Source: Anaerolineales bacterium
Lineage (GTDB): Bacteria; Chloroflexota; Anaerolineae; Aggregatilineales; UBA2796
Direction of reading: 5' to 3'
Assembly (NCBI GenBank): GCA_015075625.1
Contig: JABTTZ010000002.1
Span: 992,001 to 1,056,000, forward strand
DNA length: 64,000 bases
Positions 22,591 to 63,147 of the stretch are shown here, in pieces (positions within the stretch are counted from its first letter, which is position 1; every line of letters starts with the position of its first letter). The notes below the pieces were generated by a model. The model searched no databases, was not told the origin of the DNA, and saw only the letters and a list, made by a program, of their open reading frames with translations. Made by a program: the position numbers and the translations under genes.

Positions 22591-23811
22591 TCAGTGTGGG
22601 TCGCCCCGTTTCCAGAGTGTCTGCAACCGTAGTGAATCCCCGTCAACAACCCATTCCCCAATCAAGACGACGCCCATGCCCTTCGTGCTAAAGGGATTAT
22701 TGTCAGAGGGGCTGCCGCCCAAACGCCCCATGAGGGCAACACAGGGCAGCCGACTGTGCAGGGCATCGTTTAACAAGGCTTGCTCAATTCCTTGTTGGCT
22801 GCGGCGGATTGCCATGTTGAACGCCGTGCGCAGCCGCAGCGGATCGGTTGCCCCCTGAAAACAGGCGATCAGATGGGGCTGTTGGGGATCGCTGAGCGCC
22901 GCCCACAGCGCCGCTGATTCATCAAAACGAACTTCATCTAGGATCAGCCTTTTCAGATTCGCCTCGCCTAAGGACGCGCTCAGCACCTCAGGGAAATCCC
23001 GTCCGGGCGTCTCGCGCCCCGGCGGGATTGCCGTCAGGCGGCGGACGCCATCGGAAAGGCGCAGTTCTGCCGCCCGCTCCACACACACCATCCCTGTGGA
23101 GTCGGCAATGAGCGGCAAAAGCGCTTGGAGAAGGGTTGTTTTCCCAGAGGCGGCATCGCCAGCAATCATCAGCCCGCGTCGTTGAGCGAGAAGCGCTTGA
23201 AGTACCCCTACTGCCTCATGGGTGATTACCCCAGAGCGCTCAAGATCGGTCAGCCCATGTGGGATGAGCGGGTGTAGGCGAATGTTCACCGTCAGGATTG
23301 GGCTAATCGGGGCGCCAGTTACCGTCAGGCGGGCGGGGCGATCTGCAAGGCGCACCCCCACCTCTACAAAGGGCAGCGCCAGTTTGAGCGATGTCCCCGC
23401 CAGCGCCAAAAGCCGATCTGTAAACCGCTCCACTTGAGAGGCGTCCTGAAAGAGGGTGGGCATTGGTTTCATATCCCCCATTCCAGTCCGCACAGAAAGG
23501 CGATCATAGCCCTGAATGAGTATCTCGGTAATACCCCAATCATTGACCAAGCCATCGAGCGGGGCAAAGCCAAACAGATCGCGGTACGCCTGTTCCAAGA
23601 CGGCAAGACGATCTTCTTTGGAGAGCTTGATCCCGCTGGTGGTCATGATGTAATTGGCAATATCGCTGATCAGGGTGCGGCGCGACGCTTCATCGGGGAT
23701 CAGGTCAGGGCGATCTATCGTCTCGGCGTTGAATTCTTCCTCAATTTGTTCCAGCAGCCCCGCCCACGAGACGGCTCGCCCTCCCCGAAACAGAAATGGA
23801 TCGTCGCTCAT
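22591..23811 (-). CDS. CpaF/TadA-like type II/IV secretion ATPase
   Basis: 406-residue ATPase. The N-terminal half is the CpaF-type region (YRDLFGFAPLDGLVNDWGITEILIQGYDRLSV). The P-loop is AGDAASGKTTLLQ (residue ~218), followed by the Walker B-like LKRLILDEVRFDES. In complete Tad systems this hexamer powers assembly of Flp pili. No TadB, TadC, RcpA or prepilin peptidase gene is adjacent, but a Flp pilin gene (36415-36561) and a pilin-fused giant protein (55927-61572) are in the window. ATG 23811 begins MSDDPFLFRGG; the longer frame upstream lies in a repeat. Confidence 0.8.
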   Translation of the reverse strand: MSDDPFLFRGGRAVSWAGLLEQIEEEFNAETIDRPDLIPDEASRRTLISDIANYIMTTSGIKLSKEDRLAVLEQAYRDLFGFAPLDGLVNDWGITEILIQGYDRLSVRTGMGDMKPMPTLFQDASQVERFTDRLLALAGTSLKLALPFVEVGVRLADRPARLTVTGAPISPILTVNIRLHPLIPHGLTDLERSGVITHEAVGVLQALLAQRRGLMIAGDAASGKTTLLQALLPLIADSTGMVCVERAAELRLSDGVRRLTAIPPGRETPGRDFPEVLSASLGEANLKRLILDEVRFDESAALWAALSDPQQPHLIACFQGATDPLRLRTAFNMAIRRSQQGIEQALLNDALHSRLPCVALMGRLGGSPSDNNPFSTKGMGVVLIGEWVVDGDSLRLQTLWKRGDPH

Positions 23812-23833
23812 AGCGCTGTGTCCTTTTCCAGAC

Positions 23834-23925
23834 TGTGTTGACGTTTTTGGTTCAGAACCCCTATCCTCCCTACACATGGCTGAGGGGATCAATCCCTCAT
23901 GGGGACGCTCCCTGGGAGCGTCCCC
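23834..23925. repeat. Partial TGTGTTGAC-family repeat with palindromes
   Basis: Starts tgtgttgacgtttttggttcag like the block at 4851. It contains two palindromes: TGAGGG...CCCTCA (23881-23899) and a perfect 12 bp inverted repeat GGGGACGCTCCC with a 1-nt centre (23901-23925). It lies just downstream of the amino-acid permease gene, where the hairpin could act as its terminator. Confidence 0.6.
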
Positions 23926-36414: not shown

Positions 36415-36561
36415 CTAGAGAGCATTAACGATGTTCGAGAACACGTTAGCTATCGCCGGGCCCAACAGCGCCAAGATGATGATCACAACGATGGCGACCA
36501 AGACGAGGATGAGAGCATATTCGACGAGACCCTGACCTTCTTCACGAGGAAGATACAACAT
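36415..36561 (-). CDS. Flp/Fap-type pilin
   Basis: 48-residue pilin precursor. After the short leader MLYLPREEGQG comes LVEYALILVLVAIVVIIILALLG, one continuous hydrophobic helix, then PAIANVFSNIVNAL. The G/Q-x-L-VEYAL start of the helix is the Flp prepilin processing motif (Glu5 and Tyr6 of the mature form). ATG 36561 has AAAGGAG 8 bp before it. The same pilin segment, with GPAI-NVFSN, begins the giant protein at 55927. The CpaF-like ATPase at 22591-23811 is a plausible assembly motor. No CpaA-type peptidase is in the window. Confidence 0.88.
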   Translation of the reverse strand: MLYLPREEGQGLVEYALILVLVAIVVIIILALLGPAIANVFSNIVNAL

Positions 36562-55205: not shown

Positions 55206-55634
55206 CTAGGTCGCATCGCGGTAGCTGCGCCGTCCGTGACGGTTGATCAATTGGCGGACACCCGGGTTGATGTTTCCCGTGTCAATATCCGAAAGCAGTT
55301 CACGGATAAGCAGCGGGCTAGAGGGTTTCACCATAAAGATATTACTGCCAGCGTTCATCGCCTCTCGAATCACATCAGAGTCGTCGTCCATGGAAACCAT
55401 GACAACGACAGATTCGGGCGATTGGCTGCGGGCAAGCGCGATCACCTCGCTTCCCCGTCCGTCGGGGAGGTGGTAATCAATGAGGTATAGGGAAATATCT
55501 GAGGCGACCTGTTCCGTACCGCTGGTGCGGTCCGCTGCGGTAAGGACATCATAGCCGTGATCGGTCAGCATCAAATCCCAGATCGAGCGGTTGGCATAAT
55601 CGTCATCAACAATGAGCGCACGCTTTACCGTCAT
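55206..55634 (-). CDS. Stand-alone response-regulator receiver protein
   Basis: 142 residues, one CheY-like receiver: ALIVDDDYANRSI (acidic pocket), phosphoacceptor Asp in YLIDYHLPDGRGSEVI (~52), Ser/Thr in VVVMVSMDDDSDV and the conserved Lys in IFMVKPSSPLLIREL (~108). A ~25-residue basic tail follows; there is no output domain. No histidine kinase is nearby. ATG 55634 begins MTVKRALIVDDD; the upstream codons are not conserved. It is divergent from the pilin-fused giant gene. Confidence 0.92.
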   Translation of the reverse strand: MTVKRALIVDDDYANRSIWDLMLTDHGYDVLTAADRTSGTEQVASDISLYLIDYHLPDGRGSEVIALARSQSPESVVVMVSMDDDSDVIREAMNAGSNIFMVKPSSPLLIRELLSDIDTGNINPGVRQLINRHGRRSYRDAT

Positions 55635-55926
55635 GAAGTTCCGCCTTTCAAGCACAACTCTGATTGTAGCGAGATTGCCATACGGCGTCAACATCCCTTG
55701 ATCCAAATTGTCTCCCTAATTTTTTGTGCAACTTTTTTCTGCCCCTTATTCCAAGAGGCATTTTGTCCAACAATTCCGACAAATCGTACACAAACCTAAA
55801 CCGTAAAATGCGCAGAGTCGTGTATTCTATATGTAGTAGTCTTAGGCAAACGCAGCCCATTGCCATGGCAACGGCGATTCTCGTGGGTTTTAGGCTGAGT
55901 GAAAGCCATTTTGGAGGATGAAGTTT
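55635..55926 (+). promoter_or_regulatory. Leader of the giant pilin-fused gene
   Basis: 292 bp AT-richer gap between the divergent receiver gene and the giant gene. No hairpin terminator or gene is seen. GGAGG at 55913-55917 gives a 9 bp spacing to the ATG at 55927 and none to the ATG at 55918, which decides the start. No clear promoter hexamers were found. Confidence 0.4.
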
Positions 55927-58900
55927 ATGTTTAGCCGCAAGCAGTTCGCCCAAAAGCGCGGCACACGGGGGGCAGCAGGACAAGCACTCGTTGAGTATGT
56001 CTTGATTGTGACCCTGGTTGTCTTCGCCCTTGTCGCCATTCTGACCGTCACCGGTCCGGCGATTGGGAACGTCTTCAGCAATACGGTTTACAATATCCTA
56101 AACCAGACCACCACCCCGCGTGAGCCGTTCGGGGATGCCACCTTCTGGCAATATGCAACGGCTGTGGCGTCTTATACGCCAGCGCCCTTTGAAGTGAAAA
56201 CAAACACCCCGGTGGGGCAAGACCCCAACCAAAACAACCCTCCCATTGCCCGCCCGGACGCTTATACGTTCGATACGGCAGGCAAGACAGTGTTCACCTT
56301 TAATGTGACCGGTTCGCCCTTCCCCTTATTGCTGGCGAATGACGAAGCCCCCGCATTGGATACGACCCTGCGCGGCGACACCATCACACTCTCCAGTTGC
56401 AGCGCCGTCGTCGCCATCACCCCCGTTGTTCCCAATGTGGCAACTGTATCCTGTTTGCCCAATGGCGAGTTCACCTTTGTCCTCACCAACACCACCTTTG
56501 AAGGCTATGTGTCCTTCACCTATCAAATTATTGACTCGGAGGGCTTAACCGCCTCGGCGGGTGTAACCATCGGCATTGATGCGCTCGGTCCGCCGCCGCC
56601 CTCCAAGACACCCACGCCGCAGCCTTCGGCAACGCCCGCCGATATGTCGCACAGCTTCCCCTTCTATGACAGCGGCGATAGTTCGACGAATTGGCATATC
56701 AACTTCTCGAACGTCGTTCACGGTCCATGGGATGTGCAGTACTACAACAGCACGAACTTCACCAACCCCGTTGGAACGGTGGGATCACTGTTCTGGCGTC
56801 CGACGCGGCAAACCCTGAACGAAGATTGGGGTGGGGGCGTCCCCTCGGCACTGCTGCCCAATCCTGATGCCTACAGCGTCCGTTGGTCGGTGGCAAGCAC
56901 GCCGATGCAATCGCGCCTCTATGAAGTGCGTCTGACGGCAAACGGGGCGGCAACCTTCCGCATCAACGGGACGATCATCGCCCAGATTGCCGCTGATAAC
57001 GGGACAGCCCAAACAGTAACAGGGCTGTATAATGGCACGGCTGGTAATGTCAGCATGTCGCTGGACTTTGCCGAGACGATGGGCGATGCGTCGGTGATCC
57101 TCACCTTCAATGTCCTTGCCGATCAGGGCAACTGCCGTTGGGCGCCTGCTGGCGCACCGTACCACACGGCTAGTTCCTCGTGGCACGATAGCCCCGGTTC
57201 GGCGTCCTACGGGGTGGACTCGACGTGCAGTTTGCGCTTGCGCGGCTACATCGACATCCCCGCTACCCGCGCCGATACAACGCCCACGCAGCCGATCCTC
57301 TCGTTCTGGGAAACCTATGCCCTGAACACGAATGACAAACTTCAGATTGGTGTCCGCGATTACGATGCACCCGATAACTGGTCGTGGTTCGATGTCCATA
57401 CCTCGGCTGATGCGGATAATCTGAACTGGAAACAGCAAACCTACAGCCTGACGAACTTCATGGGGAACAACTTCCGCGGCAAGAAGATTGAGGTCGCCTT
57501 CCGGGTGATCAGTGTCGATGGAAATGTTGCCAACGGTTGGTTTGTCGATGATATTCGCGTCGAAGATTCCAACCCGCGCCTGTATGTCTTGGGTTGGGGC
57601 GATAATGTGGATAACGATGGTCCCTCGCCAAACTCGAACGATCACTTCCTAAACGAGTGCAATTGGCAGCGGGTCACCGCCGTCAAGAAAAGCGGCACCC
57701 ACGCTTGGCACGATAGCCCAGGCGCGGGTGTAGAATACCCGAATGGGTCGGATTGTTCGCTGACCTTGAATGGGTTGGTCGATCTCTCCCCCAACGCTGC
57801 CGAGGTTGAGCCAATTGAACTTACCTTCTGGAGCAAGAGCGATCTGAACACGGCGACAGACCAAGCCATTGTTCAGTACCGCTTAGAATCAGAGATCAAC
57901 AACCCGCTTGGGTGGGTCACTTTGTCCCCCACAGGCAGCCCCTATAGTTGGATTGCCAAAGCCCCCACGAGCAATACGTGGACACAAGTCTACGTTGACC
58001 TCTCGGCGTTGAAGGGGCAGAAGTTCCAACTTCGCTTCCGCCTGACTGCCGATACCGATAATAACCAAGCCGATGGCTGGTATCTTGACGATATTCTGAT
58101 TCGCCGCCGTCCGCAAGAATTCGTCGGTATCCCCTTCTACGAGCCGTTTGATAGCGCTGCCCGCTGGACAATGACCGGCACCTGGGGCGTCACGACGGAT
58201 ACCGTCACCCCGCCCATCAGCGGACCGACAGCCCTCACCGACAGCCCCGGTGTCGGCGTGAACTATGCGCCAACCTCGAACAGCTATGCCGAGCTTGTGC
58301 CGCAGATTGACCTTGCGGGGACGATCAAACCGATCCTCACCTTCTGGTCGTTCTGGGAAGCGCCTGACCCGAATTTGTTGTTGGAGGTCTCCACCGATAA
58401 CGGGGCGACCTGGAGCGGGACACCGCTGTGGCAAAAACCAGGGGCGCAGCCTGTCCAACGGGCATGGTATCGCCATCGGGTTGATTTGACATCCTTCATT
58501 GGACAGCGGATCAAGCTGCGTTTCCGCTTGCAAGTGGCAGCAGCAACGGGCTATGACGGCTGGTACATTGATGATTTGTTGGTTGAAGAGGAAGGGACAG
58601 CCGCCCGGAAACTGACCGACGGCACGATCATCTATAACCTTGACGGGACGAACCCGAAAGATGATTGGTATGCTGGCGGGGCATGGACGGTAACACCCAG
58701 TGTTGGTGTGGGGAATACGTCTGCCTTCTCAGACAGCCCAGCGGACTACCTCAAACCGGCGATCAGCATTCTTGAACCCAAGACACGCTTTGATCTGGTC
58801 GGGTCCGTCTCGCCAACACTCTACTTCTGGACCAAGTTTGAAACGGCAGATGTTGCCGACAAACTCCATGTAGATATTTCCGAGAACAACGGCGCTACGT

Positions 58901-61572
58901 GGTCAACACCCGTCTGGACGAACCCCGAACCAGCCAACTTGGGCTGGCACCGGGTGGCGATCAACCTTGACGCTTATAAAACAAAGGTGATCAACATCCG
59001 CTTCCGCTTCCAAGCGATGACAACAACCACCTCAGGGGATGGTTGGTACATCGACAATGTGACCGTCTATGATCGCACGAACATGGCAAACCTTGGCGTG
59101 ACGATGAATGATGAATTCAACGACCTCAGCAAGTGGGTTGCCGAAGGCGCATGGACTGCTGTTCCCACCATGTGGAGCGGTTGGTCGTACCGCCCGGAGA
59201 CACTCGTCCCCACGAATGTGACCTATGGCGGCACGGTGACAACCTCGAACTGGGTTGCCGATTACTGGCACATTGCCCCTTCGGATACGGGCATTTGGAC
59301 GGCGGGTGGGGTTGTGTTCCCCGGCAACGCGCCCAATGTAGAGTTGGATACTTCGGTGGCTGAAATCAACTTCAACTACCAAGCGGATACCAGCACTCGC
59401 CCCTTCTCTCCGGCGGTGACACAGTGGCAAGTATCCGGCGTCGCCAACCATGAGTACTACCTTATGAAATGGCGGCGCAGTTACCAAGTCCTCTCTGGCG
59501 GCGGCACCTACCGTCTACGCCTGACGATGGCCGGTGGGGCGCAGCTTTACGTGAACGGCAATCTGACCGGTCCAAGTATGAGTTTGGAAAAACCCTTCCA
59601 GACTGTCAGCGGGATGAACAGCAACCCCTGGGTAACCGACTCGCGCCTGCGGACGTACTACTATGAGATCACCGTAAGCGGCACGTTTACCCTTGAGTTG
59701 CAGTACCACCACAAGACACTGGCAGACTCCGGTCCCGGACAGATCGAGCTTGCCTTTGCCGAGCGCTCCAGCGTCGCCCGCACCTCGGACGGGACAGCGG
59801 CGACGAACACCTACCCGAACATGTACCGCACCAGCCTGATTTTGAACGGCTACCTGACGATCCAAGCAGGTAAAGTGGCGAATATCGGCTATCAAGAGCG
59901 CTGGTCGCTGACCGATACCGACTACGGGAAGGTCTACTATTCCTACGATGATGGCTTCACCTGGACAGAGGTAACAAGCGTCCAAAGGAGCATGAACAAC
60001 CCGCAAGGCGGTGGCTGGTCGGCTGGCTCAACGCAAGATTGGGTCAACACATCCTTTGTCCTGAAAGACCCCATCACAGGGAACACCCATACGGTGAACC
60101 GCAAGGTGATCCTGAAGTTCGAGTTGGACTCGAAGATCAACACCGCTGTTGACGAGGGCTGGCTGATCGACAACTTCCAGTTTGTCCTCGGTGATAACGT
60201 GGCGAATATCGCCCCGCTCAGTTCAACAATCACCATCCAAACGGTGACGAACAGCCAAAACAGCGCCGTGCCAACCATCGTGGATACCCCCGGTGATACG
60301 CACACGCTCAGTATCATCGCTCAACCCTTCCGGGGGACGGTGGCGGTGGTCGGCAACCAGATCCGCTACACCCCACCCGCAGAGTGGACGGGGGCAACGA
60401 CCTTTGTCTACCGGGTAACCGATCAGGGCAGCTTGACGGTAGATGCCGTTGGCTATGCCTATGTTGAACCCTACTTCTATCGAGGTGTAAACGTTGGCGA
60501 TACCAGCGGAGCAGACATAGCCCCCTCTGTAGTCATTGATGGCAACACATGGGACGCGTGGGGAACGAACACTAGCAGCAGCAACACTGGAAGCAACTAC
60601 ATCACCGCGAGTTTGTCCCCCCCTGTAACTGGCGATATGGCGACAATGCTAAGCACCGGACGACGCCGCAACACAACCGATAACTGGGCGGAGTCGCGGG
60701 TAACGATGTCCAATGTTCAAGCCGGCGTTTACACAGCTTATATCTATGTGACAACACGCACGACCACCACGGTCCCCTATGACATCATGTGGAAGAGCAT
60801 GTGGAGTATGCGTATTGTCAACGATGCCAATCCTGGTCCTACAGTTGGGAATTGGCGGCGGTACGGCCCTTACACACTCCATCAGCAATCTACGGGCAAT
60901 TTCAACTTCTACCAACACACCGCAAATGGGGTGGGGATGATCGCGGGCATTGAATTGTGGCGCGGAGGAGATTATCTCGACTGGACTTCGATGGACATTG
61001 GCGATAACGATTTCAATGACGAAGGCACAACGACAGGTGGCGGCAGCACAGTTACCCTCACCGGTGGCGGCTGGGACATCTGGACAAGTGGGTCTCAGTA
61101 CGACGAATTCCGGTATGCCTACAAGATAGAAACCGGAAGTGTTCGCATCACCGCACAGGTACGGTGGCCTACATCACCTGTCCATGAGTGGTCCTTTGCG
61201 GGGCTGATGTTGCGCTCCGAGGAATGGGAAGGATCGCCGCAGGTGACGATGGGTATCACCCGCGATCATGGACGCAATTGGGTGCGTCGTCAGACATGGA
61301 ATGGTAGCTCTGTTGATCAAAACGAAGGGACAGTGGCGACTGGGACAAGCTGGTATTGGGTGCGGGTGGAATTCCGCCACGACCTGAACCGGGCGCAGGC
61401 GTTCGTCTCCACAGACGGGGTAAACTGGACACAGTATGGCTCGAATCAGACGATCAACCTTCCCAACCGCTATATGGTTGGGTTGGCGGCCACCTCTCTG
61501 GTCGAAGGAACATCGGTGACAGCAGAATTCCGTAATGTGACGATTGAGCAAATCTCACCACAGAAACCGTAA
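55927..61572 (+). CDS. Giant secreted adhesin with an N-terminal Flp-pilin segment
   Basis: 1881 residues. The first ~57 are a Flp prepilin: charged leader, GQALVEYVLIVTLVVFALVAILTVTGPAIGNVFSN-type helix. Then come an Ig-like domain (102-218), a Pro/Thr linker, a PA14-like domain (241-398, with YSVRW and RLYEVRLTANG), four jelly-roll repeats each ending DGWY/F-hDD (398-548, 576-728, 736-888, 900-1050), a fifth split by a second PA14-like unit (1055-1421), a second Ig-like domain (1431-1514), a malectin/CBM-like part (1518-1681) and a DUF1349-like sandwich (1688-1878). No C-terminal anchor is seen, so the pilin helix should hold it in the membrane or a pilus. Functions are inferred from domain type. 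Confidence 0.85.
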   Translation: MFSRKQFAQKRGTRGAAGQALVEYVLIVTLVVFALVAILTVTGPAIGNVFSNTVYNILNQTTTPREPFGDATFWQYATAVASYTPAPFEVKTNTPVGQDPNQNNPPIARPDAYTFDTAGKTVFTFNVTGSPFPLLLANDEAPALDTTLRGDTITLSSCSAVVAITPVVPNVATVSCLPNGEFTFVLTNTTFEGYVSFTYQIIDSEGLTASAGVTIGIDALGPPPPSKTPTPQPSATPADMSHSFPFYDSGDSSTNWHINFSNVVHGPWDVQYYNSTNFTNPVGTVGSLFWRPTRQTLNEDWGGGVPSALLPNPDAYSVRWSVASTPMQSRLYEVRLTANGAATFRINGTIIAQIAADNGTAQTVTGLYNGTAGNVSMSLDFAETMGDASVILTFNVLADQGNCRWAPAGAPYHTASSSWHDSPGSASYGVDSTCSLRLRGYIDIPATRADTTPTQPILSFWETYALNTNDKLQIGVRDYDAPDNWSWFDVHTSADADNLNWKQQTYSLTNFMGNNFRGKKIEVAFRVISVDGNVANGWFVDDIRVEDSNPRLYVLGWGDNVDNDGPSPNSNDHFLNECNWQRVTAVKKSGTHAWHDSPGAGVEYPNGSDCSLTLNGLVDLSPNAAEVEPIELTFWSKSDLNTATDQAIVQYRLESEINNPLGWVTLSPTGSPYSWIAKAPTSNTWTQVYVDLSALKGQKFQLRFRLTADTDNNQADGWYLDDILIRRRPQEFVGIPFYEPFDSAARWTMTGTWGVTTDTVTPPISGPTALTDSPGVGVNYAPTSNSYAELVPQIDLAGTIKPILTFWSFWEAPDPNLLLEVSTDNGATWSGTPLWQKPGAQPVQRAWYRHRVDLTSFIGQRIKLRFRLQVAAATGYDGWYIDDLLVEEEGTAARKLTDGTIIYNLDGTNPKDDWYAGGAWTVTPSVGVGNTSAFSDSPADYLKPAISILEPKTRFDLVGSVSPTLYFWTKFETADVADKLHVDISENNGATWSTPVWTNPEPANLGWHRVAINLDAYKTKVINIRFRFQAMTTTTSGDGWYIDNVTVYDRTNMANLGVTMNDEFNDLSKWVAEGAWTAVPTMWSGWSYRPETLVPTNVTYGGTVTTSNWVADYWHIAPSDTGIWTAGGVVFPGNAPNVELDTSVAEINFNYQADTSTRPFSPAVTQWQVSGVANHEYYLMKWRRSYQVLSGGGTYRLRLTMAGGAQLYVNGNLTGPSMSLEKPFQTVSGMNSNPWVTDSRLRTYYYEITVSGTFTLELQYHHKTLADSGPGQIELAFAERSSVARTSDGTAATNTYPNMYRTSLILNGYLTIQAGKVANIGYQERWSLTDTDYGKVYYSYDDGFTWTEVTSVQRSMNNPQGGGWSAGSTQDWVNTSFVLKDPITGNTHTVNRKVILKFELDSKINTAVDEGWLIDNFQFVLGDNVANIAPLSSTITIQTVTNSQNSAVPTIVDTPGDTHTLSIIAQPFRGTVAVVGNQIRYTPPAEWTGATTFVYRVTDQGSLTVDAVGYAYVEPYFYRGVNVGDTSGADIAPSVVIDGNTWDAWGTNTSSSNTGSNYITASLSPPVTGDMATMLSTGRRRNTTDNWAESRVTMSNVQAGVYTAYIYVTTRTTTTVPYDIMWKSMWSMRIVNDANPGPTVGNWRRYGPYTLHQQSTGNFNFYQHTANGVGMIAGIELWRGGDYLDWTSMDIGDNDFNDEGTTTGGGSTVTLTGGGWDIWTSGSQYDEFRYAYKIETGSVRITAQVRWPTSPVHEWSFAGLMLRSEEWEGSPQVTMGITRDHGRNWVRRQTWNGSSVDQNEGTVATGTSWYWVRVEFRHDLNRAQAFVSTDGVNWTQYGSNQTINLPNRYMVGLAATSLVEGTSVTAEFRNVTIEQISPQKP

Positions 61573-62103: not shown

Positions 62104-63147
62104 ATGAACACACGGAAAGTCCTCTTTTGCGGACTCGGCTCGATTGGGCAGCGCCACTTACGCAATCTACGGGCGCTTTACGGCGATTCCGTCGAGGTGA
62201 TCGCCTATCGCGGACGCAATGCCAGCCCCGTCCTCAACCCCGATATGACCGTTCGCCCCGGCGCCGTACTGGAGACCACCTATAACCTCACCAGCGTTGA
62301 CCGCCTAGACGATGCTCTTGCCCTGAAACCGGACGCTGCCTTCATCACGAACCCAAACAGCCTTCACCTCCCCACCGCATTGGCAGCAGCCGAGGCGGGG
62401 TGTCACCTCTTTATTGAAAAACCCGTCTCTCACAGTATGGCGGGGATGGCAGACCTTGTGCGGGTTGTCGAAGCGAAGCGCCTGACGACCTTCGTCGCCT
62501 ATCAATTCCGCTTTCACCCAGGTTTGGCGACGATCAAACGGCTGATTGACCAGGGACGCTTGGGGCAGATCATCAGCGCCCACATTGTGAACGGCGAACA
62601 CCTTCCCGACTGGCATCCTTACGAGGACTACCGAACAACCCATCCCGCCCGCGCCGATTTGGGTGGCGGTTCGCTGAGCATCCAAACGCACGAACTCGAT
62701 TATGCCCTGTGGTTTTTCGGCTTGCCGCGCCGTGCCTTTGCCCTCGGCGGACACCTCAGTCGTTTGGAGGTGGATGTTGAAGACTCGGTGGATGTTTTGC
62801 TAGAGTGTGACTGGCAAGGGAAAACACTTCCCGTACACATTCATCTTGATTATGTTCAGCGTCCGCCGCAGCGCGTGTGCGAGGTCATTGGCGATGCGGG
62901 TAAGGTGCGCTATGACTACTACGCCGGAGAGGTCATTTTTGATGATCTCGTCACCCGCAATCAAGAGGTGTTTCGCTTTCCCCAGTTTGACCGCAATCAG
63001 ATGTTCCTCGGTGAGTTGCGCCACTTTTTTGCCTGTATCGAAGGGCGGGAACCCTCCCAGATCGATCTTGCCGAAGGGATTCGGAGTATGCGCATCGGCA
63101 TTGCGGCAAAGGAATCCCTTCGCACGGGGCTGCCCGTTTCGGTCTGA
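62104..63147 (+). CDS. Gfo/Idh/MocA-family oxidoreductase
   Basis: 347 residues. The N-terminal Rossmann domain has KVLFCGLGSIGQRHLRNLRALYG and the family EKP motif in HLFIEKPVSHS (~105). The C-terminal part has FRFHPGLATIKRLIDQGRLGQIISAHI and the Asp/His pair GGGSLSIQTHELDYALWFFG (~190), which places catalytic residues on the sugar. Expected to oxidise or epimerise a sugar or sugar nucleotide with NAD(P). AAAGGA precedes the ATG by about 10 bp. No pathway neighbours are present in the window. Confidence 0.92.
   Translation: MNTRKVLFCGLGSIGQRHLRNLRALYGDSVEVIAYRGRNASPVLNPDMTVRPGAVLETTYNLTSVDRLDDALALKPDAAFITNPNSLHLPTALAAAEAGCHLFIEKPVSHSMAGMADLVRVVEAKRLTTFVAYQFRFHPGLATIKRLIDQGRLGQIISAHIVNGEHLPDWHPYEDYRTTHPARADLGGGSLSIQTHELDYALWFFGLPRRAFALGGHLSRLEVDVEDSVDVLLECDWQGKTLPVHIHLDYVQRPPQRVCEVIGDAGKVRYDYYAGEVIFDDLVTRNQEVFRFPQFDRNQMFLGELRHFFACIEGREPSQIDLAEGIRSMRIGIAAKESLRTGLPVSV

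Follow-up and report, generated by a model that had tools for sequence, protein, structure and literature searches.

Modular pilins, in which a pilin module is followed by grafted domains, are known among T4aP; they comprise more than 1,200 proteins, PA14 is among their modules and the longest multi-domain case has 860 aa (PMC8179133). Streptococcus sanguinis PilB and PilC combine a class III leader and a pilin segment with an adhesion module (PMC8179133, PMC9934059). In Tad systems, the large pilins CpaL (Caulobacter), KilN and TadG have been proposed to occupy the pilus tip; this placement comes from modelling and, for Kil, also from genetics (PMC12607857, PMC12075869). Flp-type minor pilins such as KilO are functionally tied to tip complexes; they are short (KilO has 59 aa), all-helical and devoid of added domains. 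Flp major pilins (PF04964; Caulobacter PilA, 8u1k) are solitary proteins of about 50–60 residues, with a leader, E+5/Y+6, a hydrophobic helix and a mature part of about 40–45 residues. In the Caulobacter Tad filament, Glu +5 forms hydrogen bonds with adjacent pilins, to their backbone at +3 and at Tyr +6, and the C-termini of the pilins face outward (PMC11067988).

The window analysed here, a stretch of 64,000 nucleotides from the genome of an Anaerolineales bacterium, encodes a protein in which an N-terminal pilin module is joined to domains that are not pilus-specific. With a probability of roughly two in three, it is a type IVc (Tad/Flp) modular pilin, which would be processed and incorporated as a pilin and would allow the Tad system to display an adhesive arm of about 1,800 residues. 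The protein resembles PilB and PilC in general plan, but these are T4aP pilins (IPR012902), whereas its own head is of the Tad/Flp type and has no globular pilin domain; the array of about 1,800 aa also far exceeds the 860-residue extreme among the T4aP modular pilins. A Tad pilin-like N-terminus followed by a large C-terminal part is shared with CpaL, TadG and KilN, which, however, have a pilin-like fold with vWA or unknown domains and possess neither a Flp-type head nor a MAM/PA14 array. The leader, E+5/Y+6 and hydrophobic helix are those of Flp major pilins, but since the protein has 1,881 aa with globular domains, it is a modular derivative and not a plain Flp pilin.

The ORF is located at 55927–61572 on the plus strand and contains no stop inside the frame. 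An alternative in-frame start is present at ATG 55918, with the same stop at 61572; ATG 55927 is the likelier start, because a Shine–Dalgarno sequence, GGAGG (55913–55917, plus strand), lies 9 nt upstream of it. The flanking genes are unrelated, a divergent response regulator gene (55206–55706) on one side and a Gfo/Idh/MocA oxidoreductase gene (62104–63147) on the other. The fused gene is present in a single copy in its genome and lies outside the tad cluster; it is also away from the site between folD and a guanylate kinase paralogue (gmk) used by most orthologues. Among 55 named loci containing the fused gene, folD was found upstream in divergent orientation in 36 of the 50 whose flank was long enough; downstream, gmk was found in 34 of 43. 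An assembly or frame artefact was ruled out, as orthologues of similar size occur in more than 50 MAGs, mostly at this one conserved site.

The head comprises a basic leader, the QALVEY motif, one hydrophobic helix and TGPAIGNVFSNTVYNIL. The prepilin leader (residues 1–18, 55927–55980, plus strand) is basic and Gly-terminated, and the class III pattern G/xxxxE[YF] with a basic n-region is present as MFSRKQFAQKRGTRGAAG/QALVEY, the slash marking a cleavage position predicted from Flp pilins. It is followed by the mature pilin module (residues 19–60, 55981–56106, plus strand) with E+5, Y+6 and GPAIGNVFSN, and then by a conserved linker (residues 61–102, TPR..F...FWQYATAVASYTP....TNTP, 56107–56232, plus strand). 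In a genome-wide search, the N-terminus GQALVEYVLIVTLVVFALVAILTVTGPAIGNVFSNTVYNIL showed 52–56% identity to three solitary Flp pilins of its own genome (E 2e-8 to 7e-8). A 48-aa pilin encoded in the window at 36415–36561 (minus strand; Flp_Fap 31.0 bits, E 2.2e-7) is a likely major pilin for the filament of the fused protein, and two further near-identical solitary copies are found elsewhere in the genome. AlphaFold modelling with 21 family sequences gave helices at residues 19–41 and 45–58, a short helix at 70–81 in the linker and β domains thereafter; moderate confidence applies to the first helix only, with a pLDDT of about 72 versus 43–49 around the second. G(−1), E(+5) and Y(+6) are invariant in all 28 readable orthologues of a profile-selected set, on which the comparison was repeated because the invariance of E and Y in a motif-picked set is partly due to selection. 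No part of the protein is better conserved than the pilin segment, which has a mean pairwise identity of 59% versus 26–35% for the core array domains.

With Pfam models, the head scored 13.9 bits (E 0.047) against Flp_Fap (PF04964), not reaching the cut-off of 32.2, and 12.5 bits against TadE, below the cut-off of 22.9. The plain Flp pilin of the same genome, at 31.0 bits, is itself just under the Flp_Fap cut-off, so the low score of the head reflects a limit of the Pfam model. A class-specific Flp profile was derived from 20 solitary Flp pilins belonging to Anaerolineae orders other than that of the window. It gave 50.1 bits (E 9e-15) for the head and 24–58 bits for 24 orthologous heads; five TadE N-termini gave 6–18 bits (maximum 17.9). 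A TadE-type head (PF07811/PF13400) was rejected on these scores, which support the assignment of the head to the Flp type. In a search of the whole PDB with the head profile, the top two sequence matches were the Tad pilins 8u1k and 8u2b, with weak E values (0.14 and 0.24). The Flp-like N-terminus described in the earlier note is thus upheld by the identity to the genome's own pilins and by the class-specific profile, though not by Pfam; the 48-residue pilin gene and its match to the head were also borne out, with the strand corrected to minus.

TadA was searched for in the same 396 genomes of the class as the head profile. Within the window's order, the fused gene was found in 35 of 40 TadA-positive genomes and in none of the 24 TadA-negative ones (Fisher 5e-13, a value that ignores kinship). 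As only three genera, all from a single family, contribute the TadA-negative genomes, tadA and the fused gene were lost together in one to a few events. In the TadA-less genomes whose site was read directly (L202, L205, L209 and L211), folD and gmk are adjacent and the fused gene is gone. Five genomes have TadA and no fused gene (G011, G012, G019, G014 and G021), and in G011 the folD–gmk site is empty (L210); the Tad system, then, does not need the fused gene. The co-occurrence with TadA and the empty sites support the dependence of the fused protein on the Tad machine that the earlier note proposed.

The window's own genome encodes CpaB, a TadZ-like protein, TadA, TadB and TadC in a first tad cluster, TadE-like proteins and a vWA Tad protein in a second cluster, and two A24 prepilin peptidases. 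Export through a T4aP or T2SS machine was rejected, TadA being the single clear T2SSE ATPase. Another ATPase, of 433 aa, is encoded in the window at 22591–23892 (minus strand) and matches T2SSE only weakly and in part (26 bits, 102 positions). Short orphan Flp-like peptides occur in the genus g31 (for example, L213:6890–7099, minus strand), in genomes with no detectable TadA.

In the modular-pilin reading, the Flp segment would bring the prepilin into the membrane, and an A24 prepilin peptidase would cleave it behind Gly18. The processed subunit would then be accepted by the Tad machine (TadA/TadB/TadC with CpaB and TadZ), its Flp helices packing among ordinary Flp pilins. A C-terminal array is sterically conceivable because the C-terminus of Tad pilins faces outward (PMC11067988). 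The Ig, PA14, MAM/jelly-roll and CBM-like domains, a chain of about 1,800 residues, would be held outside the cell as an adhesive arm which, judging by its folds, could bind other cells or a polysaccharide matrix. The arm would most likely be placed at the pilus tip or on rare shaft subunits; overall, the array protein may be located at the tip, sparsely in the shaft or in the membrane only. Insertion in the shaft is a display option absent from the earlier note, and for the tip, the TadE/TadG-like proteins of the same genome are competing candidates and the usual ones.

A rather unlikely alternative is that the Flp head is only a cleavable insertion or anchoring device, the protein being held in the membrane or expelled once by a short Tad pseudopilus and acting as a wall-spanning adhesin outside the filament. 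A single gene copy distant from the tad cluster, an array of about 40 times the mass of a pilin and the lack of any other anchor would all suit such a device, and type IV systems normally keep a membrane pool of pilins. However, the filament-packing residues E+5 and Y+6 lie, together with GPA.GNVFSN, in its best-conserved region and exceed what a plain anchor needs, and the fused gene is absent wherever genomes of the order have no TadA.

The array, assigned by Pfam, AlphaFold and fold comparison and encoded throughout on the plus strand, comprises, in order, a Big_9 domain, a PA14-like domain, four MAM/InhA/reelin-like jelly-rolls, a second PA14-like domain, a fifth jelly-roll, a second Big_9 domain, a CBM-like domain and a DUF1349/GH43_C2-like domain. 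The first Ig-like domain (Big_9, residues 103–215, 56233–56571; Pfam 5.4e-10) is lineage-specific. PA14-like domain 1 (residues 243–398, 56653–57120) has a Pfam E of 0.002 and, for residues 265–398, VIA-align Z scores of 13–16 to PA14 structures of the PDB. The first jelly-roll/MAM-like domain (residues 400–552, 57124–57582; Pfam and fold comparison) contains Cys403 and Cys434, unchanged across 24 orthologues; the second (residues 556–731, 57592–58119) and third (residues 736–890, 58132–58596) match InhA-like_MAM with 2.4e-6 and 5.5e-8, respectively, and the fourth (residues 893–1056, 58603–59094) matches Reelin_subrepeat-B with 4.1e-6. PA14-like domain 2 (residues 1060–1285, 59104–59781) is predicted from the alignment to relatives and from AlphaFold strands, as is jelly-roll 5 (residues 1286–1425, 59782–60201). 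The three remaining domains are lineage-specific, namely the second Ig-like domain (Big_9, residues 1430–1512, 60214–60462; Pfam 1.9e-7), a predicted CBM-like β-sandwich (residues 1515–1680, 60469–60966; AlphaFold strands, model only) and a concanavalin-type domain similar to DUF1349, GH43_C2 and CBM66 (residues 1682–1877, 60970–61557). The last has a GH43_C2 match of 3.9e-4, under the cut-off, and in fold comparison reaches Z scores of 16–22 (21.7 to 3mep and 16 to CBM66).

Two Ig-like, two PA14-like, five jelly-roll and two sugar-binding-like domains had been counted in the earlier note, and this count is right, with PA14-like domain 2 and the CBM-like domain placed by alignment and model as described; of the profile types named there, Big_9 matched twice and InhA-like_MAM also matched, while the PA14 and DUF1349-type assignments have the values given above. 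Across the 24 orthologues compared, the core of PA14, four MAM, PA14 and jelly-roll 5 is general, whereas Big_9 domain 1 and the three C-terminal domains are largely restricted to the window's lineage. The protein contains no anchor-length hydrophobic segment other than the head, and a C-terminal membrane anchor was ruled out, the top hydrophobic window outside the head being 1.67. In its PA14, MAM-like folds and long extracellular build, the array is similar to RTX adhesins (MpAFP) and to the MAM proteins immune inhibitor A, reelin and meprin, which use other export routes and have no pilin head.

The term ‘adhesin’ is, at this stage, a guess from the domains. The array could instead serve the pilus as a spacer, as a mechanosensor or for cross-linking the matrix, similar to the surface sensing proposed for CpaL, although this appears improbable. 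MAM-like domains frequently have structural roles or mediate dimerisation, and the lectin-like C-terminal domains are confined to the window's lineage. The Asp-Asp (SDDG) calcium/sugar site is also absent from both PA14-like domains of the window protein, the second having AGGA where the PA14 domain of most relatives has SDDG.R, and this Asp-Asp is missing in the window's lineage. On the other hand, carbohydrate binding and cell contact are typical functions of the PA14, CBM66/DUF1349 and MAM-like folds, and an SDDG.R-type motif is retained in 16 of 24 relatives. It is highly improbable that the Flp likeness is due to chance or to a general hydrophobic signal anchor on an otherwise ordinary secreted or surface protein, since, despite the missed Pfam cut-off, the independent Flp profile gives 50 bits, the head shares 52–56% identity with the genome's own Flp pilins and it is conserved in orthologues of several families.

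Searches were made with the whole protein against 151 relatives and with a head profile (an 86-column module) against the 396 class genomes. Giant ORFs of 968–1,995 aa, matching the whole 86-column module with 68–139 bits, were found in the window's order only; two giants fall in the lower score range (G068 and G055). The head profile found no fused gene in the 332 class genomes from other orders, where, as throughout the class, solitary short Flp pilins (mostly 49–110 aa) scored at most 66 bits. In a phylum-wide sample of 400 genomes, the fused profile matched only the window's own genome and one solitary Flp pilin. In a scan of named genomes, almost all matches were Chloroflexota/Anaerolineae MAGs, with one record labelled Bacteroidetes. 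The Flp head is kept in orthologues from several families of the order, and no orthologue was found to start as an ordinary signal-peptide protein; a pair in family f5 starts with a TadE head. We lean towards regarding the Flp-headed arm of about 1,000–2,000 residues on the Tad pili of this order as a dedicated, vertically inherited adhesin, lost together with Tad and representing a Flp class of modular pilins parallel to that of T4aP.

In the literature searched, no description was found of a Flp-type head on an array of about 1,800 residues. The statement in the earlier note that this layout was not known holds for the exact layout and is too strong in principle, as modular pilins (PMC8179133) and large Tad tip pilins (PMC12607857, PMC12075869) are known. 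The fused gene suggests that the modular-pilin strategy reaches the Flp head, although this head lacks a globular domain and exposes its C-terminus on the outside of the filament. How the Tad machine would let through a subunit with about 40 times the mass of the adjacent pilins is a question that follows from it.

Tad pili occur very widely. Expression of Tad genes and aggregation are both known from Anaerolineae, and for those living in sludge and biofilms Tad pili are the proposed means by which cells aggregate (PMC4877987, PMC10746286); Tad-like pili were observed on Litorilinea (PMC13319060). No report naming the Tad component responsible for sticking in Anaerolineae was found in the literature searched; the fused gene is a concrete, testable candidate for it.

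Several other large or composite pilin-like proteins were encountered. Family f5 has a comparable array (about 1,850 aa) behind a TadE-type head (L050:1428–7058 and L051:8771–14317), and in one genome another TadE-like gene adjoins the array gene. On contig C2 of the window's own genome (L049:1–2483, minus strand), a TadE head is joined to long TPSRT-type repeats in a protein exceeding 820 aa, encoded beside a 917-aa vWA/Tad protein. A 189-aa protein with a Flp-like segment, GQGMAEYALTLALVSLGAIVVLALVGAAV (G000 C2:31435; L048:6322–6891), is possibly another small modular pilin. A second Flp-headed giant, with 2,470 aa, is encoded in genome G016 (L184:2769–10181, minus strand); it is unrelated and contains Cys-rich repeats. 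Another Flp-headed giant is found at L140 (ORF of 2,053+ aa). In genome G074, a 558-aa protein (L185:2822–4498, plus strand) has a Flp head, a long (STGT)n linker and Ig-like and LamG-like stretches recognised by eye; from its sequence, it is a predicted small Flp-type modular pilin.
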